A DNA stretch of 24,799 bases, taken from the IMG/VR virus record IMGVR_UViG_3300030106_006834, positions 1 to 24,799 of that record; one strand, given 5' to 3'. How positions within the stretch are numbered: the stretch's first letter is position 1; each line of letters begins with the position of its first letter. The notes under the pieces were generated by a model. That model was not told the origin of the DNA. It did no database searches and was given only the letters and a program-made list of their open reading frames with translations. The stretch is from a virus. Made by a program: the position numbers and the translations under genes. Below, piece after piece: positions 367-22,114 of the stretch.

Positions 367-388
367 AAGTGTAAAACAAAATATTGTT

Positions 389-5713: not shown

Positions 5714-5736
5714 TCTTCAATTGTTACTCATAACTG

Positions 5737-5769
5737 AAAGGTCACCTCGAAAGAGGTGGCCTTTTTTTT
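5737..5769 (+). terminator. Rho-independent terminator after the major capsid gene
   Basis: AAAGGTCACCTC pairs with GAGGTGGCCTTT (one G-U pair) around a GAAA tetraloop, a 12-base-pair stem, followed by a run of eight T (5762-5769). It lies 24 bases after the capsid stop codon and would end head-gene transcripts, so the next genes need read-through or their own promoter. Confidence 0.93.
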
Positions 5770-5788
5770 GTTTAAATTGTTAGTTAAG

Positions 5789-5806
5789 TGTATATAATAC
5801 TATATG
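5789..5806 (+). promoter_or_regulatory. Candidate promoter (-10-like box) upstream of 5804
   Basis: TATATAATA (5791-5799) contains a perfect TATAAT (5793-5798) in the only gap between the capsid terminator and the next gene. No convincing -35 box is seen. If used as a -10 box, transcription would begin at about the ATG (5804), giving a nearly leaderless mRNA, which would fit the absence of a Shine-Dalgarno sequence. The same nine bases occur at 10387-10395 before another plus-strand gene. Confidence 0.35.
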
Positions 5807-6244
5807 AGTGAAGAAAAAGAACCATATGATGAGGTCACTACAGGACAAGAGAAACCTGTAAAAAAAGGTATTGTTGAAGAGATTCAAGAAATGAGAGAGA
5901 GGGGCGAGATCAATACAGCTGCTTATAAAGAAAAAATAAAACAGCTTGAAATAGCTCTTGGAGTTCAACAATTAAGCCCTTTTAAAACTAATGAACTGGA
6001 TATCTTTGAAGATGAGCTTAAGACAATGAATCTAACTGACATGATGAGAATGGCTGAGAAAGCGGGTTTAAACCCTCATTTAGATAGGTCCAGATTAAAG
6101 ACGGCTTTGCTAAAAGAGTTTAAAGCTTATACAAGAAACAATCGGCGAAACATAATCCCAAACCCTGTAAAGCAGCCAGAGTTAGACCCTAATAATCCAG
6201 TTCATGCGAGCACTATTAAAATGCTACAAGATTTAGGTATTTAG
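5804..6244 (+). CDS. Hypothetical virion-module protein with SAP/HeH-like motif
   Basis: A 146-residue, hydrophilic, helical protein that I do not recognise as a named family. The region from about residue 72 (MNLTDMMRMAEKAGLNPH, then a charged second helix with LKTALLKEF) has the helix-loop-helix pattern of SAP/HeH-type nucleic-acid-binding motifs, where two short helices flank a G-L-x-(4,5)-S/R-x-x-L turn. It lies between the major capsid gene and the probable head-tail adaptor and is followed by that gene after 13 bases, so a head or connector role is possible. No membrane segment or signal peptide. No Shine-Dalgarno sequence; see the candidate promoter directly upstream. The motif call is pattern-based and weak. 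Confidence 0.55.
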   Translation: MSEEKEPYDEVTTGQEKPVKKGIVEEIQEMRERGEINTAAYKEKIKQLEIALGVQQLSPFKTNELDIFEDELKTMNLTDMMRMAEKAGLNPHLDRSRLKTALLKEFKAYTRNNRRNIIPNPVKQPELDPNNPVHASTIKMLQDLGI

Positions 6245-6257
6245 TGTAATAACTTAC

Positions 6258-6734
6258 ATGACCGCTTTAGAAGATTTAGCTTCAGGAATTGTAGAAACAG
6301 AGTTTGACAGTGACACTGGAATAGCCACAGTAGCCTCAGTTAGTGGATGGTTATTTGAAAATTTGGGTAGATTAAATAATTATATCTATACAGATTTTAA
6401 TGGTGCAACAGCAAGCGGCACGTATGGAGTAATTGATATTGAAGCTCAAAGCATATTAAAAGAGCTTTATCTTTACAATTATTATACTAAACAGTCAAGG
6501 AACGCTTTAAGAGGTATAACTGATTCTTCAGTTAGCGGAGATAATATTTTATCTTTAAAGGACGGAGAAAGCTCCGTATCGTTTATCAACCGTAATGAGG
6601 TATCAAAGGTCTATAGAGGGCTTGCAAACGATTCTCTGGCTAATATAGAGCGTTTATCGGCTAGTTACAATATTTATCAGGCACAGCCTAGACAACTGCA
6701 CGGAGTTGATGGCAGCGGTAGGTTAACTTACTAA
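6258..6734 (+). CDS. Probable head-tail adaptor (connector) protein
   Basis: A 158-residue, mostly helical protein in the position where head-tail adaptors (HK97 gp6 / SPP1 gp15 type) occur, after the capsid gene and before the neck genes. The pattern fits such small helical proteins: an N-terminal helix pair (GWLFENLGRLNNYIY), a central helix (AQSILKELYLYNYYTKQSRNAL, quoted in part), a beta turn with GDNILSLKDGESSVSFINRNEV, and a C-terminal helix (KVYRGLANDSLANIERL) ending in a long loop. Adaptors sit below the portal and start the neck. It ends at the bidirectional terminator. Start ATG without Shine-Dalgarno sequence. The call is by position and helical pattern, not by a signature motif. 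Confidence 0.55.
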   Translation: MTALEDLASGIVETEFDSDTGIATVASVSGWLFENLGRLNNYIYTDFNGATASGTYGVIDIEAQSILKELYLYNYYTKQSRNALRGITDSSVSGDNILSLKDGESSVSFINRNEVSKVYRGLANDSLANIERLSASYNIYQAQPRQLHGVDGSGRLTY

Positions 6735-6765
6735 TAAAAAACCCCGTCGTAACGGGGTTTGTTTT
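6735..6765. terminator. Bidirectional terminator between convergent gene blocks
   Basis: AAACCCCGT (6739-6747) pairs with ACGGGGTTT (6752-6760) around a CGTA loop. On the plus strand GTTTTATTT follows; on the minus strand the other side reads TTTTTTATTAG. It therefore can end transcripts from both the plus-strand adaptor gene and the minus-strand block, whose last stop codon lies only 4 bases beyond the stem. Confidence 0.88.
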
Positions 6766-7009
6766 ATTTAGCTTTTAATGAGGCTAGATCCTTTTTAAGT
6801 TGAATCTTAAGCTTTGCTTTTGTAGCGGCATCTTTTCCACCTGCTTCGGTAGCAAAAGCCTCAAGAAGTTCTCCTGCTGTTTTAGCTTTAGTAGGAGTCT
6901 TAGACTTAGGCTCAGGCTTAGCTTTAGGCTTAGCTTCAGTCTTAGGGGTTGCAGCTTTTTTAGGAGCTTGTTTTTTAACAACTGGGGTTTTTGTTTTCTT
7001 AATAGCCAT
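6764..7009 (-). CDS. Small basic Lys/Ala/Pro-rich protein (histone H1-like composition)
   Basis: The start is taken at the ATG at 7009, giving 81 residues beginning MAIKKTKTPVV. That ATG overlaps the stop of the upstream gene (TAATG) and is preceded by GGAGGAA, the best Shine-Dalgarno sequence in the window, 6 bases away; an in-frame ATG eight codons upstream is not needed. Residues 1-45 are a disordered tail rich in K, A, P and T, like bacterial histone H1-like proteins; residues 46-81 form an amphipathic helical end (TAGELLEAFATEAGG...LKKDLASLKAK). It could bind DNA, RNA or an acidic partner such as the Glu-rich protein encoded just upstream. It is the last gene of the minus-strand block, next to the terminator. 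Function unknown. Confidence 0.75.
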   Translation of the reverse strand: MAIKKTKTPVVKKQAPKKAATPKTEAKPKAKPEPKSKTPTKAKTAGELLEAFATEAGGKDAATKAKLKIQLKKDLASLKAK

Positions 7010-7287
7010 TATGAGTTCCTCCATATATCGCAAAGATCTAGCATTGCTGAATCAGTTTTTTCTATTCCAGCGATAGCGCAAATTTCTGCTACTTCTTCTT
7101 CAGTTCCTTTTTTAATTTTATTTTTTAAGTCTTCAATTAGAGGAAACATGTCTTTTAATGAGTCGCTTTTTAGTTGCTCAACAACTTCTTCGACCTCTTC
7201 GATCTCTTCGACTTCCTCAAATTCTTCTTCAAGCTCTTCTTCAAGCTCTTCTTCCAAAGAAGAATCTTTGTTAAATTTAAAATTCAT
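7009..7287 (-). CDS. Small Glu-rich acidic protein of the tail-tube cassette
   Basis: A 92-residue protein. Residues 9-38 consist almost wholly of Glu with spaced Leu, Phe, Val and Ile (EEELEEELEEEFEEVEEIEE), an extremely acidic, probably helical segment. Residues 42-92 look like a small folded helical domain (DMFPLIEDLKNKIKKG...EVAEICAIAGIEKTDSAML). It lies between the tail tube gene (20-base gap) and the basic protein (TAATG overlap). The acidic run comes from repeated GAA/GAG codons with short tandem repeats in the DNA. In other phages, small proteins between the tube and tape measure genes are tail assembly chaperones, but here separate chaperone-like genes exist. Not recognised; function open. 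Confidence 0.7.
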   Translation of the reverse strand: MNFKFNKDSSLEEELEEELEEEFEEVEEIEEVEEVVEQLKSDSLKDMFPLIEDLKNKIKKGTEEEVAEICAIAGIEKTDSAMLDLCDIWRNS

Positions 7288-7307
7288 ATTGTTTTTTGAA
7301 TTAAATC

Positions 7308-8417
7308 TTATTCAAAAGCTGTAGTAGTATTAGCTCCACTTACAAACAATCCAGCAGATGTATCACCTATTCCTCCAATTTGTGCAGAAAGAGTTAGATC
7401 TACACTTTTGTTAGATCCGATTGCTGATGACATGCTCTCACTATCAACTTTCGCTCCTTTTAGATCGAAAATCATTGCATCGGTTCCAGCAGTAGCGCCT
7501 GAACCTTTACTTTTAAGAGTTACTGTGGCGTTTGCAGCGGCAGCTGTTAATTTAGAAGCTAAATTCATAGCTTCTTCCTCATTAACTATCGCACTTACAG
7601 ACATACTTACATTGATTGGAAAATCAGGCTCACGAGCAAATGGGAATCTGCTTCCTAATCTCTGCAATGGGCTTCTTGAAAGAGGCATGTTTATTGAAAC
7701 ACTTTGAACATGAGCTGCTCCAGCGCCATTCAAATCAGCTATAGTATCGCCCTCAAAGTTAGATAAACTAACTGTTATATCTCCTGGGCGTAAAGCTTTA
7801 ATAGAGCTTGGTCCAGATGTAGGATCTGGTAGGCTAATTGTTCCAGCCATCGGTGTTCCTGCTTCCTGATCAACTGCTGGGTTATCAATAGCATCGGAAC
7901 TTGCATCGGAACGAACATTTGCAGCCTCTAAACTTACAGAGGCAGTTGGAATAGATCCTACTGCTAAATCAATAGTATAATCACTCACATAACAGTTTCC
8001 TATACCAATTGCGCTATCCTCAGTGCTGAGAGCGCCTTCTCCATTTAAATCTTTTCCTTCTGGACCTGTTATGATGAAAAGATTTTTTCCAGAACTTCCA
8101 ATCATGTGTCCTGATGCGAACTGAACGTCGTTAGTTCTCGATCCTCCACCAGTTTTTACGTAAAAGCCTAAAGCTCTTTCGTTAAAACCATCTGTTAGAT
8201 AGTATGAAAAATCTGTACTGACAGTAGGTGCGTCTAGTATAACTGAATCAATTCTAGCAAGCTCACCAAATTGGTTGATATCCTGTCTATTGATTGTATA
8301 GCTAAAATTAGCGCTCTGGACTCTTTCTACTTGTTTATGATTTCCCGCAGCTAATAATGATGCGTCTTCACTTATATAAAGTGCCTCTGATTGATAAATT
8401 ACTCTGTTTCTGGCCAT
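7308..8417 (-). CDS. Major tail tube protein
   Basis: This 369-residue protein is likely beta-rich with low Cys and is called the tail tube subunit, which stacks in rings around the tape measure. Two half-domains share a pattern: VQSANFSYTINRQDINQFG (33-51) and VQSVSINMPLSRSPLQRLG (238-256), each followed by FSYYL- or VSMSV-type strands. A central strand pair reads CYVSDYTIDLAVGSIPTASVSLEA (142-165, quoted in part). The C-terminus has LKGAKVDSESMSSAIGSNK then SVDLTLSAQIGG. The same layout occurs in the distal tail genes at 18854 and 20651, so the three are probably paralogues. It follows the probable tail terminator gene, the usual order, but the whole block is on the minus strand. The ATG is preceded by a weak AAAG. 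Confidence 0.72.
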   Translation of the reverse strand: MARNRVIYQSEALYISEDASLLAAGNHKQVERVQSANFSYTINRQDINQFGELARIDSVILDAPTVSTDFSYYLTDGFNERALGFYVKTGGGSRTNDVQFASGHMIGSSGKNLFIITGPEGKDLNGEGALSTEDSAIGIGNCYVSDYTIDLAVGSIPTASVSLEAANVRSDASSDAIDNPAVDQEAGTPMAGTISLPDPTSGPSSIKALRPGDITVSLSNFEGDTIADLNGAGAAHVQSVSINMPLSRSPLQRLGSRFPFAREPDFPINVSMSVSAIVNEEEAMNLASKLTAAAANATVTLKSKGSGATAGTDAMIFDLKGAKVDSESMSSAIGSNKSVDLTLSAQIGGIGDTSAGLFVSGANTTTAFE

Positions 8418-8465
8418 AATAAAAATTCTTTACTTTGTTTACAGTTTTAGTTGAAAAATATGAAA

Positions 8466-9314
8466 TTAGTTAAATCGGAATCTGTGTTTATGTATGTCAA
8501 AATCTATAAAACCCACGTACAATTCGTGCGCTAATGATTTCCTATCTCTATCGGTTAATTTAGAAGTTCTAACTGAATTTACATAAAATCCTTGTTCTGA
8601 TGAATAAGAATCTATAAATCCAGTATAATTATAAGAGCCGCCTTTTAAATCTCCTAGCTCTGTAATTGGATATCCAGTCATAGGAAGCTCTGTAATATCC
8701 TCATCTCTTGAGTCTGCAAAAATAGATAAAACTCCATCTAATTGATATGTATCTTCAGCTAAAACAACTGCTTTTACTGAGCATTGGGTTTCTTGCATGC
8801 CCCCAAAAGCAAATGGTACATTCTCCATAGTCGCAGTAGATATGAAAACAGCTGGCACTACATCGTCATAAGGTGCAATTGCGCCTTCTGCAGCAGATGG
8901 CAGTCTTGAATTTACAACATATTTATTTTCTATAATTAAATCTTCCTCAGTATCATTAGTGATATATACATTAAAATCTTTTACCGCAAACTCTCCAGTT
9001 ACGGTTAAATCAGTAGATGAACCTGATACTAATGACCTGCCATTGTCAAAATCTAAAACAACTCCATCATTTCTACCTGAAAAAGATCCACCTATGAAAA
9101 CTCCAGATGGTATGTTAGCTCCTGAGATTGAGGAGTCTGTAACCCATTGTTTGTAAGGGCTTCCAAAAGCTCTATATTTTGCGTCTAATCTAGGATCGGA
9201 ATAATAAAAAAGTTGACCTTCTTTATTAGAAAAAGCCTCTCCTTTGGTCAGCAAAAAGTTATCAAACCAAAGAAAAAATGATGTTGTTAAATTATGTTGA
9301 AATTGTGCTTTCAT
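8466..9314 (-). CDS. Probable tail terminator / neck protein
   Basis: A 282-residue soluble protein without signal peptide or membrane helices. It begins MKAQFQHNLTTSFFLWFDNFLL, continues with a beta-rich Gly/Ser centre, and has a second half with PFAFGGMQETQCSVKAVVL followed by YQLDGVLSIFADSRDEDI and a positively charged end (DIHKHRFRFN). The latter part, with its alternating strand and acidic loop pattern, recalls proteins of the neck in marine phages. Its position between the gp10-like gene and the tail tube gene is where the tail terminator is normally encoded, but it is longer than usual terminators (130-200 residues), so extra domains or another neck role are possible. It overlaps the upstream gene by 4 bases (ATGA), implying coupled translation. 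Confidence 0.5.
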   Translation of the reverse strand: MKAQFQHNLTTSFFLWFDNFLLTKGEAFSNKEGQLFYYSDPRLDAKYRAFGSPYKQWVTDSSISGANIPSGVFIGGSFSGRNDGVVLDFDNGRSLVSGSSTDLTVTGEFAVKDFNVYITNDTEEDLIIENKYVVNSRLPSAAEGAIAPYDDVVPAVFISTATMENVPFAFGGMQETQCSVKAVVLAEDTYQLDGVLSIFADSRDEDITELPMTGYPITELGDLKGGSYNYTGFIDSYSSEQGFYVNSVRTSKLTDRDRKSLAHELYVGFIDFDIHKHRFRFN

Positions 9315-9892
9315 TTTAAATTTCGAAACCTTTTCTCATATTTCTTTATAAATGATGATATATAAGCGGTATTTTTAAATCTACCCCCTCTTACCTTTAC
9401 ACGACTTTGAAGCGCAGCGCCCGATCTACCTTTACCTTTTTTTCTTAAAAGGAAGCCTAAACCAGAAATTCCTGTTTCTATCCCTTGCGCCCAACTCCTA
9501 CCAATAGCCCAAGGCATCGGTGTCATTGAAAATATTTGCTCAGCTGTAGGCAGTGTTACGATAAACTTTCCGCCTATTCTACGGCTCTCTTTTAGCTCTT
9601 TTGAATATTGTAATTGAGTTCTTTCTAAGGCATTTAATATAGGTGCTATAGGTTGATCACCCGCATCAAAACCTATAAAGGCAAATAGGCTCGTAAAACC
9701 ATTTAGTGTGCCACTTATATTTGGGGCATCAGGACCACCTAGAAGTTCTTGTGTTACAGGAAGACTTAAAAACTCCTGTATCATTTCTTTTTTAATCTTT
9801 TTAAATTTGGTATTTACCTCCTTTTTTAAAGCAGATTTACCAACTCTAGGTGCTTGTTTTTTTATAGCATTCTGTACTTCCCTATCAACCAT
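9311..9892 (-). CDS. Probable tail completion / neck protein (HK97 gp10-like)
   Basis: A 193-residue, very basic protein. The N-terminal helix is charged (KKQAPRVGKSALKKEVNTKF); a middle part holds PVTQELLGGPDAPNISGTLN and LFAFIGFDAGDQPIAPI; the C-terminus is strongly basic (KKYEKRFRNLK). HK97 gp10-like and lambda gpZ-like tail completion proteins are small, basic, start with a long charged helix and lie between the head-closure and tail-terminator genes, exactly the place here. Overlaps the next gene by 4 bases and follows the previous one after 2 bases, so it is in the middle of a tight operon. The ATG lacks a Shine-Dalgarno sequence, consistent with coupling. Family identity is inferred from size, charge and order. 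Confidence 0.52.
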   Translation of the reverse strand: MVDREVQNAIKKQAPRVGKSALKKEVNTKFKKIKKEMIQEFLSLPVTQELLGGPDAPNISGTLNGFTSLFAFIGFDAGDQPIAPILNALERTQLQYSKELKESRRIGGKFIVTLPTAEQIFSMTPMPWAIGRSWAQGIETGISGLGFLLRKKGKGRSGAALQSRVKVRGGRFKNTAYISSFIKKYEKRFRNLK

Positions 9893-9894
9893 AA

Positions 9895-10365
9895 TTATTC
9901 ATCAATCGGAGTAAGCAAAAAAGTAAAAAACCTATTGCTTGTTAACCCTCTAGGCTTTCCATCGCTCTTTATTGCAAATTTTCTGCCATCAAACTCAACT
10001 CTCCTAGCTTCTCTTATGAAGTTGTATGCAGTTTCTTTTACAACCATTTTTACGCTACCATCTGGCAGAATTACTTTATTTTGTGTGCCAACCTGTCCAG
10101 TTCCAGCCTCGTCAGCTAAATATTCTTTTTCTAAATCAACATAGTAAATTCTAGCATCGAAAGTATCTGAAATTGTAGTATATTCAACTGAAGTATTAGA
10201 TCCTGTATTTGTTCTTCTATATAGAGAGTTCCAAGAAGTAGTTGATGCTATTAGTGTTTTTTTAGCATTTTTGTACACAGTAATAGTTTGGGCAAATGTC
10301 GTATGAAGCGTGTCTGCCAAAGTATTAATTTTATTTATTTGATTCTCAGATAAAAACCCAGCCAT
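9895..10365 (-). CDS. Probable head closure (stopper) protein
   Basis: A 156-residue protein. After an N-terminal helix (SENQINKINTLADTLHTTF) it is beta-rich, with YTTISDTFDARIYYVDLEKE, then KVILPDGSVKMVVKETAYNF and RRVEFDGRKFAIKSDGKPRG, a pattern of short strands and loops like the beta-barrel of head-closure proteins (SPP1 gp16 / lambda gpFII type) that plug the portal after packaging. It is the first gene of the minus-strand block and is followed by the gp10-like gene, matching the usual neck order. Start ATG at 10365 has no Shine-Dalgarno sequence; a TATAAATA box lies 18 bases upstream. Assignment is by fold pattern and context only. Confidence 0.52.
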   Translation of the reverse strand: MAGFLSENQINKINTLADTLHTTFAQTITVYKNAKKTLIASTTSWNSLYRRTNTGSNTSVEYTTISDTFDARIYYVDLEKEYLADEAGTGQVGTQNKVILPDGSVKMVVKETAYNFIREARRVEFDGRKFAIKSDGKPRGLTSNRFFTFLLTPIDE

Positions 10366-10375
10366 GTAGATTTTT

Positions 10376-10390
10376 ACACTTTTATTTATA
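10376..10390 (-). promoter_or_regulatory. Candidate T4-type late promoter for the minus-strand block
   Basis: On the minus strand the bases at 10390-10383 read TATAAATA, identical to the T4 late promoter core recognised by the phage sigma factor gp55. Transcription would begin roughly 6 bases further, leaving a leader of about 11 bases before the ATG at 10365. It is the only exact copy in the window that lies between genes; five other exact copies fall inside reading frames, about what base composition predicts, so the match alone is weak and the position is what supports it. A sigma factor gene lies at 24279-24799. Confidence 0.42.
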
Positions 10391-10400
10391 TAATAAGATA
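10387..10400 (+). promoter_or_regulatory. Candidate plus-strand promoter in the divergent region
   Basis: TATATAATA (10387-10395), with TATAAT at 10389-10394, is the same nine-base word found just before the gene at 5804, and it overlaps the opposite-facing TATAAATA. It would serve the plus-strand tail operon that starts at 10411. No well-spaced -35 box is visible. Confidence 0.33.
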
Positions 10401-10410
10401 GTATTCTGCC

Positions 10411-10698
10411 ATGAACGCTAAAAAAAAATTATCCAAAGATTCTACATCTGAAATATCATCACTATTTAAATTAATGTTAATGATGGTTGAGGATATGAAG
10501 AAAGACCACGATTTTCATTATGAAAAGCTCTATAATGAAATACCAAACGAGTATCATTCAGTTTTGAGAGCCGCCGATCATTTCACAGATGACAAAGTTT
10601 CTTGGATTAGGAAAAGAATTTTAGACTTTGGCAATGAATCAATTAGAAATTTAGACTCAAAGTTAGATAATTATACTGTTACTTTCATATTTAAATAA
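10411..10698 (+). CDS. Hypothetical small helical protein, first gene of tail operon
   Basis: A 95-residue protein, largely helical and charged, with a basic start (MNAKKKLSKDST), a Met/Leu-rich helix (FKLMLMMVEDMKKDHDFHYE) and a C-terminal half with ADHFTDDKVSWIRKRILDFG. No signal peptide; the Met-rich helix is interrupted by charge and is not a likely membrane span. It is the first gene after the divergent promoter region and lies 11 bases before the chaperone-like pair. The ATG lacks a Shine-Dalgarno sequence. I do not recognise a family; a role in tail assembly is suggested only by its neighbours. Confidence 0.65.
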   Translation: MNAKKKLSKDSTSEISSLFKLMLMMVEDMKKDHDFHYEKLYNEIPNEYHSVLRAADHFTDDKVSWIRKRILDFGNESIRNLDSKLDNYTVTFIFK

Positions 10699-10709
10699 GG
10701 AAAAAGGCT

Positions 10710-11465
10710 ATGGAATTTAAAGAATTATATTCATTCTCCCTCGATAGAGAGGAAGAAGTAGAAAAAGAAACATCCAGAAAAGACAAAAAAACTGGCGATG
10801 TTATTAAAAAAATTAAAAAGGTAAAAGAAAAAGTACCTTATGTAATTAGATTAAAAAGACCATCAAGGAGAGAACTTGAGGAAGCTGAGCTTGAATACTC
10901 AGTTGAGATGAGCAAATGCGTCAAAAAAGGTATTCTAACAAGAGCTATGCTTTTCAAAAAATATAGCGACACTGGTGGAATGTATACCGATGATGAAAGT
11001 GAAAATTACGGTAAAATTTATAAAGATCTTTTAACTTTACAAAATGAGTATGTCAGAATGGATTCTGTTGAAAAGCCAACAGAAAAACAAAAAGAAAAGC
11101 TAGAAAAGATTAAAGATGATCTAGCCGTTTCAAAGAAAAAACTTGTCGAGTTTGAATCTAATATGCACTCCTTGTTTGACCATACAGCTGATACAAAAGC
11201 TCAAAACAAACTTTTGTTGTGGTATACTTTAATGTTAACTCACGTACAGAGTGAGTCAGACGAAGCTCCTGTGCCTTATTTTACAGGGGATGATTTTGAA
11301 GCAAAGACAAAAGATTATTATGATAAAGAGGACAGTAGTGACGAGTTTTACCAAGAAATAGTAAAAAAAGTTACAACAATTTTAGCTTTCTGGTTCTTTA
11401 ATCAGGCTTCAAAACCTGAGGAGTTTAATAACTTAATTGAACAAATGGAAAAAGGTGAGCTTTGA
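10710..11465 (+). CDS. Probable tail assembly chaperone A
   Basis: A 251-residue, highly charged protein with good Shine-Dalgarno signals (AAGGAAAAAGG). Residues 45-50 form a short strand (PYVIRLKRPSRRELEEAE), followed by a helical domain with GILTRAMLFKKYSD and YTDDESENYGKIYKDLLTLQNE, a Lys/Glu-rich coiled coil, and a hydrophobic second helical domain (KLLLWYTLMLTHV). The layout strand - R-(E/D) helix - G-x-x-T-x-A - (W/Y)T-x-DD - coiled coil recurs in the next gene, so the two are likely related. Two overlapping genes just before the tape measure gene are where siphophages encode the chaperones that coat the tape measure (lambda G/GT). Its stop TGA overlaps the TTG start of the next gene. 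Confidence 0.55.
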   Translation: MEFKELYSFSLDREEEVEKETSRKDKKTGDVIKKIKKVKEKVPYVIRLKRPSRRELEEAELEYSVEMSKCVKKGILTRAMLFKKYSDTGGMYTDDESENYGKIYKDLLTLQNEYVRMDSVEKPTEKQKEKLEKIKDDLAVSKKKLVEFESNMHSLFDHTADTKAQNKLLLWYTLMLTHVQSESDEAPVPYFTGDDFEAKTKDYYDKEDSSDEFYQEIVKKVTTILAFWFFNQASKPEEFNNLIEQMEKGEL

Positions 11466-12445
11466 ATGAAGAATTTTATATCTCTTTAATAGGCGAGGCT
11501 TTTGATGGTTATACTGAATGCAAAATAGATAAAAAAGATGTTTATCTAAAACACATAAGTATAAGAGATCAAAGGTATCTCCATAAGTATTATGAGAAAT
11601 ATAAAAAACTAGCCTTAGATCGAGGTTTAGAAACAGAGGCTGAAAGGATAGCTGCTGTTATTAAAGATGAGATTTGGACGGAGGATGACGATTCTCAAAT
11701 TGCATCACTAGAAAATGAAGTAGAGGGTTTAAAAGAAACAATAAAAGCCACTTTTTTGCCGTCCCAGAGAGAGGTTCTTCAAGATGATTTAAAAAAGCGC
11801 AGAGCTGAGCTTGCGGATCTTGCTATAAAAAGGAAAGAGATTGTAGGTAAAACTGCTGAAGATTACGCGCAAGTAAGAAGCGGCGATGAGCTTTTAAGAT
11901 GTTTACTTTATAAGGATGTTGATTTAAAAGATTATTTATATTCAGATGATCAATTTGCAGAGTTAGAAACTTGGGAGGTTTCAGATATAGCCAAGATACA
12001 ACAAGATATTGGATTAAAGTTTTCTGATTCAGTAATACAACAAGCTGTTTTAAGACCTTTCTTTAGCATGTATTTATCATCATGCGAAAACATGGCCCAG
12101 TTTTATGGTAGACCAGTCGTAGACCTTACTATTTATCAATTAAAAGTAGCCGCTTACGGAAGAATGTTTTTTAATATTTTTCAAAATGTTCCAGATATAC
12201 CAGACAATATAAAAGATAATCCTGAGCAGTTAATTGCTTTTAGCGATGCTCAGATGAATAAAAATAAAAACTCTGGCGGCATAGATGAGAATGCTGATGC
12301 AACAGCTGTCTTTGGAGCGACTAAGCAAGATATTGATACAGTCGCAGGAAAAGGCAAAACAGTTAGCTTATCTGAAGAGTTAGAAAAGCATGGTGGTAAA
12401 TTAAATATGGAACAAATGATGCGATTAGCGGGCCATGATGTGTAA
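11462..12445 (+). CDS. Probable tail assembly chaperone B (TTG start)
   Basis: A 327-residue protein started at TTG 11462, which overlaps the previous stop as TTGA; AAAGGTGAG ends 3 bases upstream and an in-frame TGA at 11456 rules out a longer form. Residues 20-95 share the layout of the previous protein: a strand (KDVYLKHISIRDQRYLHKYY), GLETEAERI, then WTEDDDSQIASLENEVEGLK. A Lys/Arg/Glu coiled coil (85-125) is followed by a helical domain (130-260) with LRPFFSMYLSSCENMAQFYG and LTIYQLKVAAYGRMFFNIF. The C-terminal tail ends EQMMRLAGHDV. It directly precedes the tape measure gene, so a chaperone for that protein is the likely role. No canonical slippery heptamer was found, so re-initiation rather than frameshifting probably links the two. 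Confidence 0.55.
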   Translation: MNEEFYISLIGEAFDGYTECKIDKKDVYLKHISIRDQRYLHKYYEKYKKLALDRGLETEAERIAAVIKDEIWTEDDDSQIASLENEVEGLKETIKATFLPSQREVLQDDLKKRRAELADLAIKRKEIVGKTAEDYAQVRSGDELLRCLLYKDVDLKDYLYSDDQFAELETWEVSDIAKIQQDIGLKFSDSVIQQAVLRPFFSMYLSSCENMAQFYGRPVVDLTIYQLKVAAYGRMFFNIFQNVPDIPDNIKDNPEQLIAFSDAQMNKNKNSGGIDENADATAVFGATKQDIDTVAGKGKTVSLSEELEKHGGKLNMEQMMRLAGHDV

Positions 12446-12482
12446 ATCCTTGTGTAATTAAACATAAAAGGTTTACGGACAT

Positions 12483-15400
12483 ATGGCAGCAGAAATAAAT
12501 GCAAAATTTGTAGGATTAGAAAAAAGCGTTCAAGACGCAGCTAAAGCTGCGGGCAGAAATCTTAAGATTAACGTAGGAGCGAACGCTAGAAGTGTTGAAG
12601 CTTTATCTCAACCGTTAGGTAGAATCACAGGAAAAGCTGATGAATTTACCAAATCAATGGAGGCTGCTAACGCCCGTGTTTTGGCTTTCGGTGCTTCTGT
12701 TGGAGTTTTAAGAAGCGTTACAAATAGCTTTAAAGAATTAGTTGTAGTAACAATTCAAGTTGAGAAACAGATGGCTGCCATAAATGCTATCTTGGGTGCG
12801 TCTACTGGGGAGCTAAGTAAGTTTAAAAAAGAAATTTTTGATGTCGCTAGAAATACTGAACAGTCTTTTGAAACTGTTTCGACTGCCGCATTAGAATTAA
12901 GTCGTCAAGGTTTAGCTGCTGAGGAAGTTGTTAAAAGGTTAAATGATTCTTTGATTTTAAGTAGATTGTCTGGACAGAGTGCGGCAGATGCGGTCGCTGG
13001 ACTTACTTCAGCGATAAACGGTTTTAAAACTGCGGGGATTACAAGTGCTCAGGTAGTTAATAAATTTTCAGAAGCCGCTAAAAGTGCAGCGGTGTCAGAG
13101 AGAGACTTGGCTGAAGCTTTTAAGCGAGCTGGTGCTGTTGCTGGACAGGCAGGAGTGTCGTTTGATGAGCTTGTTGGTATTGTTAGTGCCGTTCAAGAAA
13201 AAACTTCTAGAGGTGGATCAGTTATAGGTAACTCATTCAAGACGATTTTTACAAGAATACAAAGTCTTGATAAATTAACAACAATGGAGGATCTAGGTGT
13301 TACAGTCACTGATAGTGCTGGACAAATTTTATCTGCAACAAAAATTATACAGAATTTAGCAGGTGTCCTTCAATCATTTCCTGATGCAAGGCGACTTCAG
13401 ATAGCCGAGAACCTAGTTGGTAAATTCCAAGTTGCTCCGTTTATATCTCTTTTAGAGGATTATAATGATGAAACCTCAAAGGCTATAAAAATAACAGAAA
13501 TTTCCGCTAATGCTACGACAGCTGCTTATGAACGTAATGCAGCTTTGAATTTAACTCTCTCTGCTGCCATAAGTGAGGCTAGAGTAAACGTAGAGCAGCT
13601 TTTTGACACTTTAGGTAAAATAGGAATTACTGAGGGTTTACAAAATATTTTAGGATTTTTTAATACTTTAGTTTCAGATTTAAGAGGATTACTAGATGAA
13701 GAAACTGGAAGCGATATCGCCAAAGGTTTAGTAAAAGGTATAGGTAATGTAATATCTGGGCCTGGATTGGCTGTCTTTGCTGCTATTATCGGTAAACTAA
13801 CTAAGGATCTTGTTAGCTTTGGATTAGGCTCTATGAGGACTTTCTTTGGTTTAAATAAAGCCGCAAAAGAACAGGCTGCCGTACAAGGACAGATAGCCTC
13901 AACCCTTTTAGGTAATTCTGATATCCAAAAAAGAATTCTAGCTATAGAAAATTCACAACTATCAACAGAGGGAAAGAAACTTGCACAGACTAAGTTTTTT
14001 ACCACTGCTCTTAATGAACAGTTAGCTGTGATGCAAAGAATGCAGAACATAGCTAGCCGTGTAGCACCTGGAGTCATAGCTGGAACAAGAAAAGGCAGAG
14101 GCGCTGGAGGATACATTCCTAATTTTGCTGGAGGTTCAGCATTCGGGTCAGAGCAAGCCGATATCAATCGCGGTGTTGGCGGTGCTCCTCGTTCAGCTAG
14201 ACCTGTGTCTATACCTAATTTTAATTTTGGTGGCGGGCAGCGTGGCACAATGGTTGCCAATACAAGTGAATTTATTGTTCCTAATTTTGGTGGGGGTTCT
14301 GCTATATTTAATCAGAACATGGCGGCATCCATGGGACTTCCAGCTGGCGCTAGGCCAGTTGGAGCGGCTGGTGGATATATTCCTAACTTTGCTGCCTTTA
14401 AAAGCACAAGCGGTCAAACTAAAGGTCTTACCTTAGATCAAGCTATTGATAGTGGCCGTTTCAACCGCGGAGCTTTAACCGCAGGATTTGGAAAAGAAGC
14501 TGTAGATAAAAAACTAGGGCTAGTTAGTCAAGCAGGTAAGCCTGTTGCCAAAAAGAAATCTAATGCTGGCGTTTTAACATATGACGCAGATCATTTAGGT
14601 ATCCTGTCACTTTTCAAAGAGAAAAAAGATAATTCAACAAGTTTAACTCTATCTAGTAAAAAAGTATCTCAGACAAATGAAGGTGTTAAAGCTCTTAGAG
14701 CGATGGGTGTAAATCAAGTTGTTCTAAGGAATGTTCAGCTGCAAAGCGTGGATAATATGAAAAAGGGTTTTAGTGAAACAAGGAATAGACAAAAACTAGC
14801 TCAGTATTTTACTAAACCTTTGGTCCAATATGGATCTATGTTATTAGGGGGCGCTTTTAAAAATGATGAGCTTAAAGCGGCTAGATCTGAACTAGCAAAA
14901 TTAGCTAGAGGTAAAAGCTCAGCAGCCTTATTTTCTACATCAGGAGAGGGTGCTATATTAGAATCAGCCGTAAATCTAGTTACAAAGGGAGCAAAAGCAA
15001 TAAAAGAGTTTAAAACTACTGCAAGTGAAAGAGCGCCATTCGATTTTGAAGAGACTGGACCAGCTGGAGATGAATTTAAAACTGCTTTTAGATTTGATAA
15101 GGATTTACAGAAAGCTGATGCAAAAAGAACTGCTAGCGACTCGGCTGTTCGTAGTTTAATAACAAAAGCTTTAAGTGATGGCACTGAGCGGGGAAAAATG
15201 ATATTAGCAGCCGAGGCAGCGGGCTTTAAAAAGGCATCATCTGGATATATACCTAATTATGCTTCTAGTCCTTTAGATAAAGCTATCAATAGAGAAGTCG
15301 CAGCTGGCCTTCCTATCAACCAAGTAAGAATCAATCAAAAAGGCACACTAAGAAACTCAGCAAACCCAATGGGTCTTGCTGTTACTAATACTAGAGATGA

Positions 15401-18400
15401 ACCTACTGGAGCGATACCTGCTGCTGAAGGATTTATACCTAATTATATTGTTAAGTTTCCTGGAAAAAGAAAAGCTACATCAACCCAAGGTGTAGATAAT
15501 TTAGACCGTAAAGCAGGAAAAGCATCTGAAAGTATTGATGGCTTAGGAAAATCTTCAGATGAAACCACTACAGGTCAAAGAGATATGCTTGGTACTATAT
15601 TTGGGGTTCAAATGGGTTTAAGTTTATTGACAGGTGCAACTTCAGATGCTGAAGATGGTATATTTAAATTTGCAAATAGTTTATCAGGCGCTGCGTCTAC
15701 AATAACAACAAGCTTATTAGCTGGTCAAGCTTTAGGTCAATTAGGAGGAGGTATGGTAGCAAGCAAACAAAAGGGGTTTGTGGGCGGTCTTACTAGAAAA
15801 TCTGGTTCTTTGCTTGTAGGATTAGGAAAGTTAGGTATTGCTGTTGGAGTGGTAGCAGGTGGTTTTAAAGTATTTAATGATATATTTAGAGAAACATCAG
15901 GCTTAAATGATGCAAACAGTAAAGCACTAGATAAATTTACTGACCAAATAGAAAAATCTACTTTTGGTTTATCTCAATTTACAAAAGTTCAACAAAGTAG
16001 AATCAATGAACAGATTGAATCAGTAATTTCTGGGCAAGATCGTGACCCTAACAAAAAAATAAATAGAGGAGGTGTGCTTGGCTTTAATGAAGCTCTTACT
16101 GATGAAACATTAAGGCAAGCTTTAATATCTGGAGTTTTAAAAGGATTCGATGTTGATTCAGTTGTTAAGGCAATGAGGGATCAACGTGATAGAGGGCTGT
16201 TTCTCCCAAGCGGTGAAAAAAGACCTTTTGAAGAATTCAAAAGAATTAACGAGGAAGATCCAGATTTCTTTGATGATGCATTAACTAATACGGAAGAAAT
16301 AGAAAGAGCTTTAAGCGCTGTGGCAAACTTACCAGATTTGGCTGGAAAAGCTATGAAATTGGTAGAGAAGGCTAAGTTTGGAGCGCTCAGTGAAACAGGC
16401 TTGAAGGGTGCAATAAGAAATGCAGAGGCTGAGGCTATGGAGGAGACTTTATTTGTGAAGCAAATAAAGGATTTAGGTATAGAATCTCAAGAAGTTTTTG
16501 ATGAAATTATTCAAGCTTATAGAGATCGGAGAGATGCCGCTTTTGAAGCTAATAAAAAACTGGCAGATGCTGACCTAAAATTAATTAACAAAACTGAAGC
16601 TTTAGCGCGTGTCTTTGAAATTTCAAAAGGGGTTAGAGAAGGGCAAGCAGCTAGACAAAGAGGTCTTAATGCTAGAAGCGCTCTAATCTCAGCGGGTTTA
16701 GCTACATCTGACCAAAGATTTGGTGTATCTCGTGATAGAACAATTTTAAATCAAGAAATAGCAGACACTACAAGAATTAGAACCTTAGCTCAAAAAATAA
16801 TAAGCGAGAGTAAGGATCTTAAATTAAAAGATGCTCCTGAAGGAATTAAAAGAATTTTAAATTTAAATCCAAATGAACTTTCGATACAAGATTTGAGAGA
16901 CTTTTCTACAAGTCTTGCTACAATCGCTGAAAGAACAGAGGGTAAATTTAAAGAGGATATATTAAAATATAATATTGACACTTTTGAAAGCAATCTAAAA
17001 TTTGCAAATGAAATTGCAAAAATTGAAAGTGATCGAAATGCCGCTACTATGACTTTGGCAAAAGCTTCAAAGAAAGCTGCAATCGATGCTATAGATAAAT
17101 TAAATACTTTTGATCTACAGTTTCAAAGAGCCACGGCAACTGGTTTTGAAAGACGTAGGTTAACTAGAGAGATTGATTTTCTAGGTGAAATGGGTAAACT
17201 TAGGGATAAACCTGAGGATGAAAGACTTATTGGGCAAGCAGCGCTCATGAGAGCGAAAGAGCTTGGAGATGTTTTAGATGATGCATCTGAAAATTTTGTA
17301 GATTCAATAACTAACGGTTTAGTAGATGCAATTGTCCAAGGTAAAAGTTTAGGAGAGACTTTAAGATTAGCTGCTACAGATTTCTTTACTATGATGTCAA
17401 AAGCTTACATGAAGCAAGCTGTTGATAGTATCGTAGATGGCGGCGGCGGTGGCGGCGGCGGTAATATTTTATCAACTGTTTTAGGATTTATTGGATTAAA
17501 AAATAGCGGTGGAATGATAAGAGGTGGTTCTGGAACTAGAGATGATGTTCCTACTCTACTAACTGGTGGAGAGTTTGTAATGAGAAAAAGTTCTGTAAAT
17601 AAATATGGAACTGGATTTATGAGTGCTCTAAACCAAGGAGCTGTTCCAAAGTTTGCTAACGGAGGGATGTTTGTCCCAGGAAGTTATGGCCAAGGTGCAA
17701 TCACAGGAAAATCTAATTTGCTAGGATTTGCAACTCAAACTGGAACCTCTACATCGGCTGACAGAATGGTCAGTGGAGCTAATTTTGCAGCTATAGCTTT
17801 AGCCCCTGAAAGCATTGCGATGACGAGCTTAGGTAGATCTATGAGTCCAGCCTTCAAGAAAACTCAAGAGGCTAAATCTCAAGCATTTAATTTATTTGTA
17901 CAACAACTACAAGCAGACGAACAACGTAAAGAACAGCTTAGGCAACAAGCAGAAGCTAAAAAACAACAAAGAAAAGGATTACTTGCGTCTCTTGGAATGG
18001 CCGCTCTAAGTGGTTTTGTCTTTGGGGGTGGATTAGGTAATTTGTTTGGAGGTAGGAAAACTACAGCAGATCCTGTGCTTCAAAATTTTGGTTTCGACAG
18101 TGATTTTGCCCCACTGCCATCATCTGCTCCAAAAGGCATCCCAGTTGCTACAGCAGTAACACCAAAAGCATTACCTTTGATGGTGCAATCTTTTAAAGGT
18201 CAAGGTATGGGAGGACAAACAATCCTCCAAGGTGCAGGAGACATAATGTTTCAAGGGGTTAATTCTAAACCTATACCTAAATTTAATAGAAATCCATTTG
18301 CAGCACTAACAGGTGGACCAGCCCCATTTAAAAATCCATTTGCTCCTTTAAATAGTCTTATTGATCAAACTGTACCAAATCCATTTGCAGGTGCACAAAT

Positions 18401-18854
18401 AAAATCTCCACTGGGACACGGGCAATTTGTAGAGCCTCAATTGCCTGTAGGGCTAGGTTCTTTAAGTAATGCTTTATTTCCTACAGCTCGACCCATGGGA
18501 GGAATGATCCCATACATGGCTGGTGGAGGTGGAGTCGGTTACGCTGCTGGTGTTGACACGGTTCCAGCAATGTTATCTGGCGGTGAATTTGTAATGAACG
18601 CTGCTGCAACCTCAAGAATTGGGGCATCTAATTTACAAGCTTTAAATTCTGGAGCTTCTATGGGAGGTGGTAGCACCTCTATAACTAAAGGAGACACCAA
18701 TATAAATATAGTAGTTAATTCTAATGGATCTGTTAATCAAAATGCTTCAGCTGATGCAGGAGCTGCTGATAAAGGTTTAGCTGTGAGATTAAAAGATGCC
18801 GTTAAAGGGGTTATAGCTGACGAAACAAGACTAGGAGGAATGCTCTCAGCTTAA
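12483..18854 (+). CDS. Tail tape measure protein with repeat-bounded insert
   Basis: This 2123-residue protein is the tape measure, which fixes tail length inside the tube and is ejected into the host at infection. Residues about 60-340 match the phage-minor-tail core of TP901-type tape measures (FEVSTAALELSRQGL-like helices, AADAVAGLTSAINGFKTAG, GNSFKTIFTRIQSLDKL). Residues 543-989 form a Gly-rich region with six GYIPNFA-type repeats and an inserted globular stretch (about 640-915). Hydrophobic segments occur at about 1110-1131 and 1833-1855. Long coiled-coil regions cover 1160-1630. The C-terminal 450 residues carry two copies of a GGEFVM module (E1697, E2035), an eight-Gly run (1653-1660) and three NPFA motifs. 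At about 0.15 nm per residue the length implies a tail up to 300 nm, less if the insert is not extended. AAAAGG precedes the ATG; the stop overlaps the next start. Confidence 0.92.
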   Translation: MAAEINAKFVGLEKSVQDAAKAAGRNLKINVGANARSVEALSQPLGRITGKADEFTKSMEAANARVLAFGASVGVLRSVTNSFKELVVVTIQVEKQMAAINAILGASTGELSKFKKEIFDVARNTEQSFETVSTAALELSRQGLAAEEVVKRLNDSLILSRLSGQSAADAVAGLTSAINGFKTAGITSAQVVNKFSEAAKSAAVSERDLAEAFKRAGAVAGQAGVSFDELVGIVSAVQEKTSRGGSVIGNSFKTIFTRIQSLDKLTTMEDLGVTVTDSAGQILSATKIIQNLAGVLQSFPDARRLQIAENLVGKFQVAPFISLLEDYNDETSKAIKITEISANATTAAYERNAALNLTLSAAISEARVNVEQLFDTLGKIGITEGLQNILGFFNTLVSDLRGLLDEETGSDIAKGLVKGIGNVISGPGLAVFAAIIGKLTKDLVSFGLGSMRTFFGLNKAAKEQAAVQGQIASTLLGNSDIQKRILAIENSQLSTEGKKLAQTKFFTTALNEQLAVMQRMQNIASRVAPGVIAGTRKGRGAGGYIPNFAGGSAFGSEQADINRGVGGAPRSARPVSIPNFNFGGGQRGTMVANTSEFIVPNFGGGSAIFNQNMAASMGLPAGARPVGAAGGYIPNFAAFKSTSGQTKGLTLDQAIDSGRFNRGALTAGFGKEAVDKKLGLVSQAGKPVAKKKSNAGVLTYDADHLGILSLFKEKKDNSTSLTLSSKKVSQTNEGVKALRAMGVNQVVLRNVQLQSVDNMKKGFSETRNRQKLAQYFTKPLVQYGSMLLGGAFKNDELKAARSELAKLARGKSSAALFSTSGEGAILESAVNLVTKGAKAIKEFKTTASERAPFDFEETGPAGDEFKTAFRFDKDLQKADAKRTASDSAVRSLITKALSDGTERGKMILAAEAAGFKKASSGYIPNYASSPLDKAINREVAAGLPINQVRINQKGTLRNSANPMGLAVTNTRDEPTGAIPAAEGFIPNYIVKFPGKRKATSTQGVDNLDRKAGKASESIDGLGKSSDETTTGQRDMLGTIFGVQMGLSLLTGATSDAEDGIFKFANSLSGAASTITTSLLAGQALGQLGGGMVASKQKGFVGGLTRKSGSLLVGLGKLGIAVGVVAGGFKVFNDIFRETSGLNDANSKALDKFTDQIEKSTFGLSQFTKVQQSRINEQIESVISGQDRDPNKKINRGGVLGFNEALTDETLRQALISGVLKGFDVDSVVKAMRDQRDRGLFLPSGEKRPFEEFKRINEEDPDFFDDALTNTEEIERALSAVANLPDLAGKAMKLVEKAKFGALSETGLKGAIRNAEAEAMEETLFVKQIKDLGIESQEVFDEIIQAYRDRRDAAFEANKKLADADLKLINKTEALARVFEISKGVREGQAARQRGLNARSALISAGLATSDQRFGVSRDRTILNQEIADTTRIRTLAQKIISESKDLKLKDAPEGIKRILNLNPNELSIQDLRDFSTSLATIAERTEGKFKEDILKYNIDTFESNLKFANEIAKIESDRNAATMTLAKASKKAAIDAIDKLNTFDLQFQRATATGFERRRLTREIDFLGEMGKLRDKPEDERLIGQAALMRAKELGDVLDDASENFVDSITNGLVDAIVQGKSLGETLRLAATDFFTMMSKAYMKQAVDSIVDGGGGGGGGNILSTVLGFIGLKNSGGMIRGGSGTRDDVPTLLTGGEFVMRKSSVNKYGTGFMSALNQGAVPKFANGGMFVPGSYGQGAITGKSNLLGFATQTGTSTSADRMVSGANFAAIALAPESIAMTSLGRSMSPAFKKTQEAKSQAFNLFVQQLQADEQRKEQLRQQAEAKKQQRKGLLASLGMAALSGFVFGGGLGNLFGGRKTTADPVLQNFGFDSDFAPLPSSAPKGIPVATAVTPKALPLMVQSFKGQGMGGQTILQGAGDIMFQGVNSKPIPKFNRNPFAALTGGPAPFKNPFAPLNSLIDQTVPNPFAGAQIKSPLGHGQFVEPQLPVGLGSLSNALFPTARPMGGMIPYMAGGGGVGYAAGVDTVPAMLSGGEFVMNAAATSRIGASNLQALNSGASMGGGSTSITKGDTNINIVVNSNGSVNQNASADAGAADKGLAVRLKDAVKGVIADETRLGGMLSA
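14109..15449 (+). repeat. Six GYIPNFA-type protein repeats in the tape measure
   Basis: Short Gly-flanked repeats of the form G-(Y/F)-I-P-N-(F/Y)-A occur at residues 543-549, 631-637, 921-927 and 983-989, with looser copies SIPNFNF (576-582) and FIVPNFGG (597-604). In DNA they begin at 14109, 14208, 14271, 14373, 15243 and 15429. Degenerate forms may occur later (VPKFANGG at 1721, PIPKFN at 1930). The coding bases differ between copies (FNPI codons vary), so the constraint is on protein. They bracket an insert between 637 and 921. Confidence 0.85.
17508..18663 (+). repeat. Duplicated GGEFVM module near the tape measure C-terminus
   Basis: Residues about 1676-1719 (GGMIRGGSGTRDDVPTLLTG then GEFVMRKSSVNKYGTGFM) and about 2016-2060 (GGGVGYAAGVDTVPAMLSG then GEFVMNAAATSRIGASNL) share the frame GG..(R/Y)..G.(R)D(D/T)VP..L.GGEFVM........G...L..LN.G. 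Such VPAxLxxGEFV motifs are common in tape measure proteins; here two copies are about 338 residues apart. Confidence 0.8.
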
Positions 18855-19669
18855 TGTTTGGCACTAAATTAAATTACGATTCAAGGCTATTTTTAGAGGG
18901 CGAAGAGGTCTCTGGAATAAATACTGTTGATTTTTCGTATTCTAATTCTGTTAGTACAATAAATCCTTTAGGGTTTAGCAATGGTGTTACAACCGTCAAT
19001 GGAGAAACGCAGCAAAATTTTTCTTTTACTAGAGATTTAGTTTACAAATCTGTTGTAGCTTCTGGAGTTGGCGGAAGTAGTTCTTTTACTGGATCTAATA
19101 ACTTATCAGGCAGCATTCATTACAACGGAGAATCTTATGGATTTCAAAGTGGATACCTTAACAATTGGTCAATAAATTGTGCAGTCGGAGCACCTGTAAA
19201 AGAAACTTGTTCTTTTGTCGTTTATGATGAAATGAGAAGTGGCGCAAACGCTTCAGGCTCTGCTACAGCTCCAAGCTTAAGCATACCAAGTCAAGGCGGC
19301 ATTACTGCTACATGTGACAATAGCTCTACTAATAGAGTTATAGGCTTTGACTATGCAGTAACTTGCAATAGAAAACCTTACTATTCAATAGGTGATAAAG
19401 CACCCACAGAAGTTAAGTTTATACCTCCTTTAAATATTACTGCTGCGGTTCAAGTAGAAGTTGATGACGCTTTTATGGAAAATGGTAGAAATTTTTTAGA
19501 AACAGGTAAAAGCAGTAGGACAGTTAATTTAAAAGTAAATGGTAGAAATGGCGGCCCAACTCTTGTTGATGCCTCAGTGCCTAATGCTTGTTTAGTAAGT
19601 GAATCTTTAAGTGCATCTTCAGATGGAAGTTTGAGATTAACTCTTAATTATATGGGGCATACATCATGA
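18854..19669 (+). CDS. Tail-tube-fold paralogue, probable distal tail protein
   Basis: A 271-residue, probably beta-rich protein directly after the tape measure, its ATG sharing a base with the stop (TAATG). It has the same order of elements as the tail tube protein at 7308: INTVDFSYSNSVSTINPLG (22-40), a FSFT strand, GYLNNWSINCAVGAPVKETCS (100-120, quoted in part), then NRVIGFDYAVTCNRKPYYSIG (160-180, quoted in part) and PLNITAAVQVEVDD, and a C-terminal VNLKVNG...LVSESLSASSDGS-LRLTLNYMG. Its place after the tape measure suggests a distal-tail or baseplate-hub ring continuing the tube, comparable to where Dit-type proteins are encoded. It has six Cys residues, more than the tube protein. It overlaps the next gene by 4 bases (ATGA). 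Paralogy is from visual alignment. Confidence 0.6.
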   Translation: MFGTKLNYDSRLFLEGEEVSGINTVDFSYSNSVSTINPLGFSNGVTTVNGETQQNFSFTRDLVYKSVVASGVGGSSSFTGSNNLSGSIHYNGESYGFQSGYLNNWSINCAVGAPVKETCSFVVYDEMRSGANASGSATAPSLSIPSQGGITATCDNSSTNRVIGFDYAVTCNRKPYYSIGDKAPTEVKFIPPLNITAAVQVEVDDAFMENGRNFLETGKSSRTVNLKVNGRNGGPTLVDASVPNACLVSESLSASSDGSLRLTLNYMGHTS

Positions 19670-20650: not shown

Positions 20651-22114
20651 ATGTCAAGAGCTATAATACAGAGTCAAAAAGCAATAGTCGCCGCAAGTAA
20701 TGATACTGGATCATTTAAAACGACTAATATTGATTTAAATTTAATTAATAATGTTCAAAACGCCAGTTTTTCTATTGCCTTCCCTCATGAAAAATCAAAG
20801 CAGTTAGGCTCGCAGAACTTTAGTATTGATAATACTTTTATACAGCCAGATGTAGAATTAACCTTATCATATATACCAGAGGCTAAGTTACAGAATGAAA
20901 TAAATAGTAATTTTATAAGTGGGGGTAATTCTTACGCCACTAGCGTTCAAGCTCTTGCTGGTTCATTACCTAAAAATACTAATTTTTTAATTATAAATAG
21001 CCCCGATGATGGCAAAGATGCGCTAGATTCAGTTACAGTTGGTGGGTCAGCAGTAAACCTCGCTGGTTTTGAAGCTGCCGCTTTTGGAAACTGTTTTTTA
21101 ACTTCTTATGGATTAACTTATGGAGTAAACTCTTTACCAATTGTTACTACTTCCTATGTAGCATCAAACACAAAGTTTGAAAAATTGACTGGCACTAGTA
21201 TGGAATCGCCAGCTATAAATTTACTTGAGGGTAACAATAATAATGTAGGGCTTCTAAATTTTGTTTTTGATAATGGTACTAAAGATCCAAAAGTCCCAAC
21301 GCCGAATGATTCTAACAGTTCTATATCCTTTGAAAACTTGCAAGTAGGAGGTCAAGCTATCTCTGGCAGCCATTTAGTCCAATCTGTTGATATGTCAGTG
21401 GCTTTACAAAGAGTTTCTAATTATGGTTTTGGGAGTGATTTTTCTTATGATAGAAAAGCTGAAATGCCAGCTAATGGATCATTTTCTATATCATCATTGG
21501 TATCAGGTTATGGAAACGGTAATATAACTGGCGTTTTGGATACAGAACAAAAGTATAATTTTGATTTAATTTTAAGTGCTAGCAGCTCTCATGATTACGC
21601 CGTAGATGGAACTTTTTCTGAGGGGTACAGTAATTGGAGTTCTTCAGACGCTTCGAAAGTTACTATTATTTCTGCTTCTAATTTAGTGCACTTTAATACA
21701 CCAGATACACAAACTTTAACGCAGACAGATCCATTACCTTTAAGAGCAGTAAGAGTTTTAATTACATTTACAATATCAGATAGGACAGCAGGTGGAATCA
21801 AACTTACAATGCCTACTCCAGCAGCTGGAACTTTATTTAATTCTGATGGTACTTATCAAGTAGAGGTAACAACAAGCCCGCTTTTAGCTAATTATAATGA
21901 TATTCAGTTTACTAGTGTGGGCACTACTAATCTTAAACTAAGTAATGTTTCAGCTGTACAAGTCCCTGAAAAACTTAAATATTCAGTGTCCGATGCTAGA
22001 TTAGAATCTTACAGTTCATCAATTCCAGTAAATGGTATTATGTCTTTTGACGCTTCGTTTACATTCCCTGTAAATGAAACTGTAGGGCTTGCATTAAGCG
22101 GAACGCCGTACTAA
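20651..22114 (+). CDS. Tail-tube-fold paralogue with inserted jelly-roll-like domain
   Basis: A 487-residue distal tail protein with a good Shine-Dalgarno sequence (AGAGG, 6 bases before ATG). It aligns along its length with the tail tube protein at 7308: shared N-terminus (SQKAI.. versus SEALY..), VQNASFSIAFPHEKSKQLG (35-53), NFLIINSPDDGKDALD (111-126), FGNCFLTSYGLTYGVNSLPI (145-164), VQSVDMSVALQRVSNYGFG (243-261) and PANGSFSISSLVSGYG. Residues about 316-440 are extra: DGTFSEGYSNWSSSDAS, VRVLITFTIS and LKLSNVSAVQV recall CBM4/9-type or galactose-binding jelly rolls. After it the tube-like C-terminus resumes (KLKYSVSDARLESYSSSI to FTFPVNETVGLALSG). It may form a decorated tail-tip ring that binds host glycans. 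Its stop overlaps the converging gene by 4 bases. Confidence 0.6.
   Translation: MSRAIIQSQKAIVAASNDTGSFKTTNIDLNLINNVQNASFSIAFPHEKSKQLGSQNFSIDNTFIQPDVELTLSYIPEAKLQNEINSNFISGGNSYATSVQALAGSLPKNTNFLIINSPDDGKDALDSVTVGGSAVNLAGFEAAAFGNCFLTSYGLTYGVNSLPIVTTSYVASNTKFEKLTGTSMESPAINLLEGNNNNVGLLNFVFDNGTKDPKVPTPNDSNSSISFENLQVGGQAISGSHLVQSVDMSVALQRVSNYGFGSDFSYDRKAEMPANGSFSISSLVSGYGNGNITGVLDTEQKYNFDLILSASSSHDYAVDGTFSEGYSNWSSSDASKVTIISASNLVHFNTPDTQTLTQTDPLPLRAVRVLITFTISDRTAGGIKLTMPTPAAGTLFNSDGTYQVEVTTSPLLANYNDIQFTSVGTTNLKLSNVSAVQVPEKLKYSVSDARLESYSSSIPVNGIMSFDASFTFPVNETVGLALSGTPY

Follow-up and report, generated by a model that had tools for sequence, protein, structure and literature searches.

Evidence for a single, ancient inversion of the neck and tail-tube operon in a clade of uncultured marine and freshwater siphophage-like viruses

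The neck and tail-tube operon of a large clade of uncultured marine and freshwater siphophage-like viruses was very probably inverted in place once, in an ancestor of the clade, and has stayed inverted. Few features of tailed-phage genomes are as conserved as late-gene order; a diverse clade that as a whole deviates from it, at a single defined operon and with un-inverted counterparts still extant, makes it possible to ask what that order is needed for. The DNA analyzed, referred to as the window, is the whole of a metagenomic virus fragment of 24,799 bases (IMG/VR record IMGVR_UViG_3300030106_006834), which had no match at the nucleotide level in the phage collection. On its plus strand it carries, in order, the terminase end, the portal gene, genes in the protease/scaffold and decoration positions, the gene for the major capsid protein, and h1 and h2. 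Six consecutive minus-strand open reading frames then fill positions 6764 to 10365, after which the plus strand resumes with c0, c1, c2, the tape measure gene and three tail genes (Table 1). The left junction, between h2 and the block, is convergent; the right junction, between b1 and c0, is divergent and spans a 45-bp gap (10366-10410). A reading of the window made from its sequence alone (the sequence-only reading) had described six minus-strand genes within a plus-strand head-tail cluster, bounded by a bidirectional terminator on the left and a divergent promoter-like gap on the right, and both descriptions agree with what we found.

Table 1. Features of the window at and around the inverted block. 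Fractions are loci with the motif; chance is the number expected.
Feature	Position	Strand	Remark
b1	9895..10365	-	First block gene; head-tail stopper-type neck protein (predicted structure)
b2	9311..9892	-	Conserved, orthologues in all clades; gp10-like tail completion by position
b3	8466..9314	-	Conserved, orthologues in all clades; tail terminator/neck by position
b4	7308..8417	-	Tail tube protein, T5 pb6/P74-26 type (predicted structure)
b5	7009..7287	-	Small acidic accessory gene; close relatives only
b6	6764..7009	-	Small Lys/Ala/Pro-rich accessory gene; close relatives only
h2	6258..6734	+	Head-completion (adaptor-position) gene; directly 5′ of b1 in un-inverted relatives
c0, c1, c2	10411..12445	+	Chaperone position; directly 3′ of b4 in un-inverted relatives
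Tape measure protein gene	12483..18854	+	PHROG tail length tape measure families, best E 1e-40
Bidirectional intrinsic terminator, 9-pair hairpin AAACCCCGTCGTAACGGGGTTT	6739..6760	both	h2/block junction; terminator-like on both strands
Terminator, major capsid gene to h1	5736..5765	+	Same place in many relatives
AAAAGTGTAAA element 5′ of b1	10373..10383	-	GTGTA at 10379-10375; near-invariant in divergent gap
TATAAT element 5′ of c0	10389..10394	+	Candidate promoter of c0-c1-c2
GTGTA before portal	369..373	+	55/60, chance 7.7
GTGTA before h1	5788..5792	+	53/72, chance 7.8
GTGTA before h2	6244..6248	+	60/73, chance 6.6
Two GTGTA before tape measure gene	12440..12456	+	66/67, chance 11.1; positions from matrix scan

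Predicted structures point to the functions of two of the block genes. The AlphaFold2 model of b4 (pLDDT 77, pTM 0.79) resembles the tail tubes of T5 (pb6) and P74-26 (Foldseek E values of 3e-12 to 2e-10; VIA-align Z score of 19.8 over ~300 residues), and the two-domain tube fold spans the whole chain of the model. By predicted fold, b4 is a tail tube protein of the T5/P74-26 type, at an identity of ~10% to those tubes and without a match at the sequence level; neither the tube protein nor the capsid protein found a match in the phage collection. The model of b1 (pLDDT 72) comprises a helix plus a beta barrel, and its top Foldseek matches are the SPP1 gp16 connector, the T1 stopper and the lambda neck protein; neck proteins, with VIA-align Z scores of 8.6-9.8, occupy most of the top rows. 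With moderate confidence we assign b1 as a head-tail stopper protein with the stopper beta-barrel fold. Searches of PHROGs, Pfam and the PDB with the sequences of b1, b2 and b3 gave nothing usable, and neither b2 nor b3 has a family or PDB match; gene order suggests that b2 is probably the gp10-like tail completion protein and b3 probably the tail terminator or neck protein. The neck and tube names given in the sequence-only reading are thus backed by predicted fold for b1 and b4 and by gene order only for b2 and b3. The conserved core of the block consists of b1 to b4 only, b5 and b6 being restricted to the closest relatives. (Note that b6 has an ATG at 7009; the listed TTG start at 7033 would overlap b5.) Taken as a unit, the block looks like a neck/tail-tube operon with start and stop signals of its own. 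Tube-type genes also occur elsewhere: distant paralogues of b4 (~23-29% identity) lie 3′ of the tape measure gene in the window (t1, 18854-19669; t3, 20651-22114) and in G010 (at 28585), and two tandem tube-type genes (L293, 15312 and 16688) sit within the inverted block of G012, a 120-kb freshwater-type contig. T5 offers a parallel, its tail-tip proteins sharing the tube fold.

The signals at the block boundaries recur in relatives of the window. Of 79 distinct relatives, 45 carry the junction hairpin on the plus strand, 41 of them on both strands, in a scan that covered only the 120 bases 3′ of h2. In the divergent gap, GTGTA occurs within 40 nt of the b1 start at 74 of 78 loci, where dinucleotide composition predicts 6.7 by chance. 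The same motif, followed in the upstream alignments by an A/T-rich stretch and placed a short distance 5′ of the start codon, precedes the portal, h1, h2 and tape measure genes but is close to absent, over the same 40 nt, at b2 (0/81), b3 (1/81), b4 (3/81), capsid (0/70), decoration (0/69), c1 (2/75) and c2 (0/70). A GTGTA seen before b3 in 46 of 76 loci with a 100-nt window was discarded, as it was gone at 40 nt. With a scoring matrix built from the GTGTA-bearing sites of portal and h1, 31 of 53 gaps scored above the 99th shuffle percentile in the direction of b1 and 2 of 53 in the direction of c0; the window's own b1 site has a moderate score of 6.4, below its own 99th percentile. GTGTA is probably a late promoter, and as such represents a conserved, testable candidate element for an uncultured phage lineage without close matches in the searched phage collection. 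Because GTGTA stands before b1 and before the portal, h1, h2 and tape measure genes and is missing at b2 to b4, capsid and decoration, the pattern suggests that the block is a single operon and that its one promoter belongs to the general late class. On the c0 side of the gap, TATAAT, TATTAT or TATAAA occurs within 40 nt of the c0 start at 71 of 76 loci (chance 24) and is probably the promoter of c0-c1-c2. T4-type late promoters (TATAAATA) were set aside, since the window holds 6 with 3.3 expected by chance and relatives do not conserve the copy at 10383, and a sigma-70 scan of the window (27 sites, 23.7 expected) was uninformative. A sigma-like gene on the minus strand at 24279-24794, with a weak match to PHROG transcriptional regulators (E 7e-4) and none to Pfam, might encode the reader of the GTGTA promoters. 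Also on the minus strand, an Hsp20 small heat-shock gene (22497-22802) adjoins glycosyltransferase-like and single-strand binding protein genes.

To judge how widespread the arrangement is, we gathered well over 200 related loci, using the tube and capsid proteins as queries, and called orientation by profile mapping of the window genes onto them. The block is opposite to the head genes in all 128 loci that hold both, with none mixed, and in 105 of the 128 it is also opposite to c0 through the tape measure gene. Note that part of the 128 loci represent the same contigs, and that 78 distinct inverted rows, by b3, entered the tree; the 128 were drawn from many different metagenomes. The fact that the orientation and both boundary signals are found again in dozens of distinct relatives argues that the arrangement is more than chance, and the fall in identity within the inverted set to 55% for the capsid protein and 34% for b3 argues that the inverted state is old. 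Moreover, within the inverted clade capsid distances correlate with those of b2, b3 and b4 (0.59-0.70), consistent with a common history of block and head proteins. The block is likewise inverted in two freshwater relatives (G006 and G011) that carry ~15 kb between h2 and b4, containing genes named fibre-, glycosyl- and methyltransferase-like from reading the sequences, with no family search behind the names; in G010, which has head and tail clusters at opposite contig ends, it is reversed relative to both. The inversion looks deep, fixed and clade-wide, and is most probably neither recent, reversible nor an artefact. The sequence-only reading had proposed a comparison of gene order and had counted this orientation in most relatives, from a deep ancestor, as evidence against it; the whole nearer clade does have the orientation from a deep ancestor, which speaks against a recent or local event.

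Un-inverted relatives, with head genes, b1 to b4 and c0 through the tape measure gene on one strand, were also identified (G001, G035 and G021, plus L304, L305 and L306 from later scans). The most complete order is that of L306 (IMGVR_UViG_3300005330_000014), in which protease, decoration, capsid, h1, h2, b1, b2, b3, b4, c0, c1, c2 and tape measure genes run contiguously, all on the plus strand. From h2 to the tape measure gene the order in L306, L305 and G021 (the head cluster of the last sitting at the other contig end) is that of the window after the block is flipped back, as the sequence-only reading of a fixed inversion of a functional unit had proposed; the orthologues of b1 to b4, c0 to c2 and the tape measure gene in G001 and G035 have the same relative order. 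Unlike the window, these relatives have b4, then a terminator, then c0 on a single strand, and in L306, L305 and G021 h2 abuts b1. The b4-c0 terminator was found in G001, G035, G021, L304 and L305; L306 has a T-rich hairpin-like stretch at this position and GTGTA before c0. The TATAAT element before c0 is present in un-inverted G001, G035 and L304 as well.

Trees of b1+b2+b3 (81 rows) and of b1 to b4 (42 rows) each separate un-inverted from inverted phages by one change of state, without mixing and with 100% branch support, for a small un-inverted sample of about six diverse lineages. Polarity is less firmly set, as no outgroup carrying b genes fixes the root of these block-protein trees, and in a tape-measure tree rooted on Staley-type sequences the branches are long and the groups weakly supported (71 and 34). 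Portal and tape measure find only weak matches in the phage collection, to Bacillus phages Slash and Staley and others; all the annotated genes of Staley, the nearest cultured relative by these two proteins, share a strand from terminase and portal through to tape measure. We favour the one-strand order as ancestral and the inverted order as derived, on the grounds of the common phage order and the Staley gene strands. The converse, that the inverted order came first, would suit the far greater number of inverted members in the sample and a tree that splits the two states without a firm root, but the one-strand order is the common siphophage order, is that of Staley and is common to about six diverse lineages, and we regard the converse as very unlikely.

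An un-inverted ancestor would have had the order h2-b1-b2-b3-b4-terminator-promoter-c0-c1-c2-tape measure, with one breakpoint in the h2-b1 interval and the other separating the terminator from the c0 promoter. That un-inverted phages have a terminator separating b4 from c0 argues that c0 could already start alone before the flip. After inversion of b1 to b4 with the terminator, each unit would still possess start and stop signals, kept or gained, which may be why the inversion was tolerated: b1 would now be under the GTGTA of other late units, c0 would have its TATAAT element, and a hairpin lying between h2 and b4 would end transcription arriving from either side. An alternative origin of the block, as a cassette that was gained or relocated and came to lie in reverse, would be in keeping with the variable small genes b5 and b6 and with a site beside b4 that takes other DNA, as in G006 and G011; such an origin is improbable, because the flipped-back block fits exactly between h2 and c0, as in L306, L305 and G021, and because block and capsid distances correlate. 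That the block is an invertible, phase-variable switch has nothing beyond its orientation to recommend it and is highly implausible. As the sequence-only reading had noted, inverted repeats with arms at the two block ends are absent (the best pairs listed for 6200-10900 are A/T-rich and lie elsewhere); the 128 loci show no mixing of orientation, and each assembly has one orientation. The block genes, moreover, are invariant neck and tube genes and not receptor-binding genes, which are what known phage switches vary. Misassembly, which the same reading had offered as a possible refutation and which might be suspected in a 24.8-kb metagenomic fragment, has a negligible probability, since the same junctions, with conserved motifs, recur in independent assemblies whose block-protein identities range from ~40% to 99%.

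The signals described above support separate transcription of the inverted operon, and to that extent the suggestion that inversion lets tube and neck proteins be expressed apart from other late genes is upheld. Separate timing is not indicated: the GTGTA of b1 is that of the portal, h1, h2 and tape measure genes, which is consistent with unchanged timing, and b4 and c0 were already split by a terminator in un-inverted phages. An earlier idea of ours, that the block was autonomous everywhere before the flip, was dropped because GTGTA is absent before b1 in G021, L305 and L306, where b1 abuts h2. It is present before b1 in G001, G035 and L304 (in G001 a minus-strand gene block lies 5′ of b1), and this difference suggests that loss of the h2 link goes together with a GTGTA before b1. 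It is conceivable, though doubtful, that the inversion was favoured for uncoupling neck and tube dosage from the head-completion operon, with a new late promoter at b1 making good the lost h2 link and the same element appearing whenever b1 is cut off from h2, whether through inversion or through other genes 5′ of b1, as in G001, G035 and L304.

The inversion is of a known kind and is notable for its depth and extent. The common siphophage late-gene order, as in SPP1 (PMC6316719; the order is discussed in PMC2147016), has the same portal-protease-capsid-neck-tube-chaperone-tape measure set as the window, in which the neck/tube operon is on the opposite strand. The siphophage SPP1invmir tolerates an inverted genome segment (PMC6316719), but it is a cloning-derived mutant whose segment holds replication and not virion genes, rather than a natural, clade-wide state. 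In phage 0305phi8-36 the virion gene orf205 lies in the opposite orientation to its neighbours and is transcriptionally isolated (PMC2147016); that is one gene, thought to have been inserted, whereas in the clade of the window a four-gene operon is inverted in place. We found no published account of such an arrangement in open-access text.

Two further observations concern the relatives. One inverted block lies in a contig binned in a Verrucomicrobiales MAG, and the contigs of capsid relatives L297 and L298 were binned as Patescibacteria and Verrucomicrobiales MAGs; a host assignment from two MAG contigs was dropped because the bins disagree. Finally, the start-to-start spacing of portal and protease genes is 4-5 kb, in place of ~2 kb, in G021 and in marine relatives L185-L217, which suggests an insertion or a longer portal gene.
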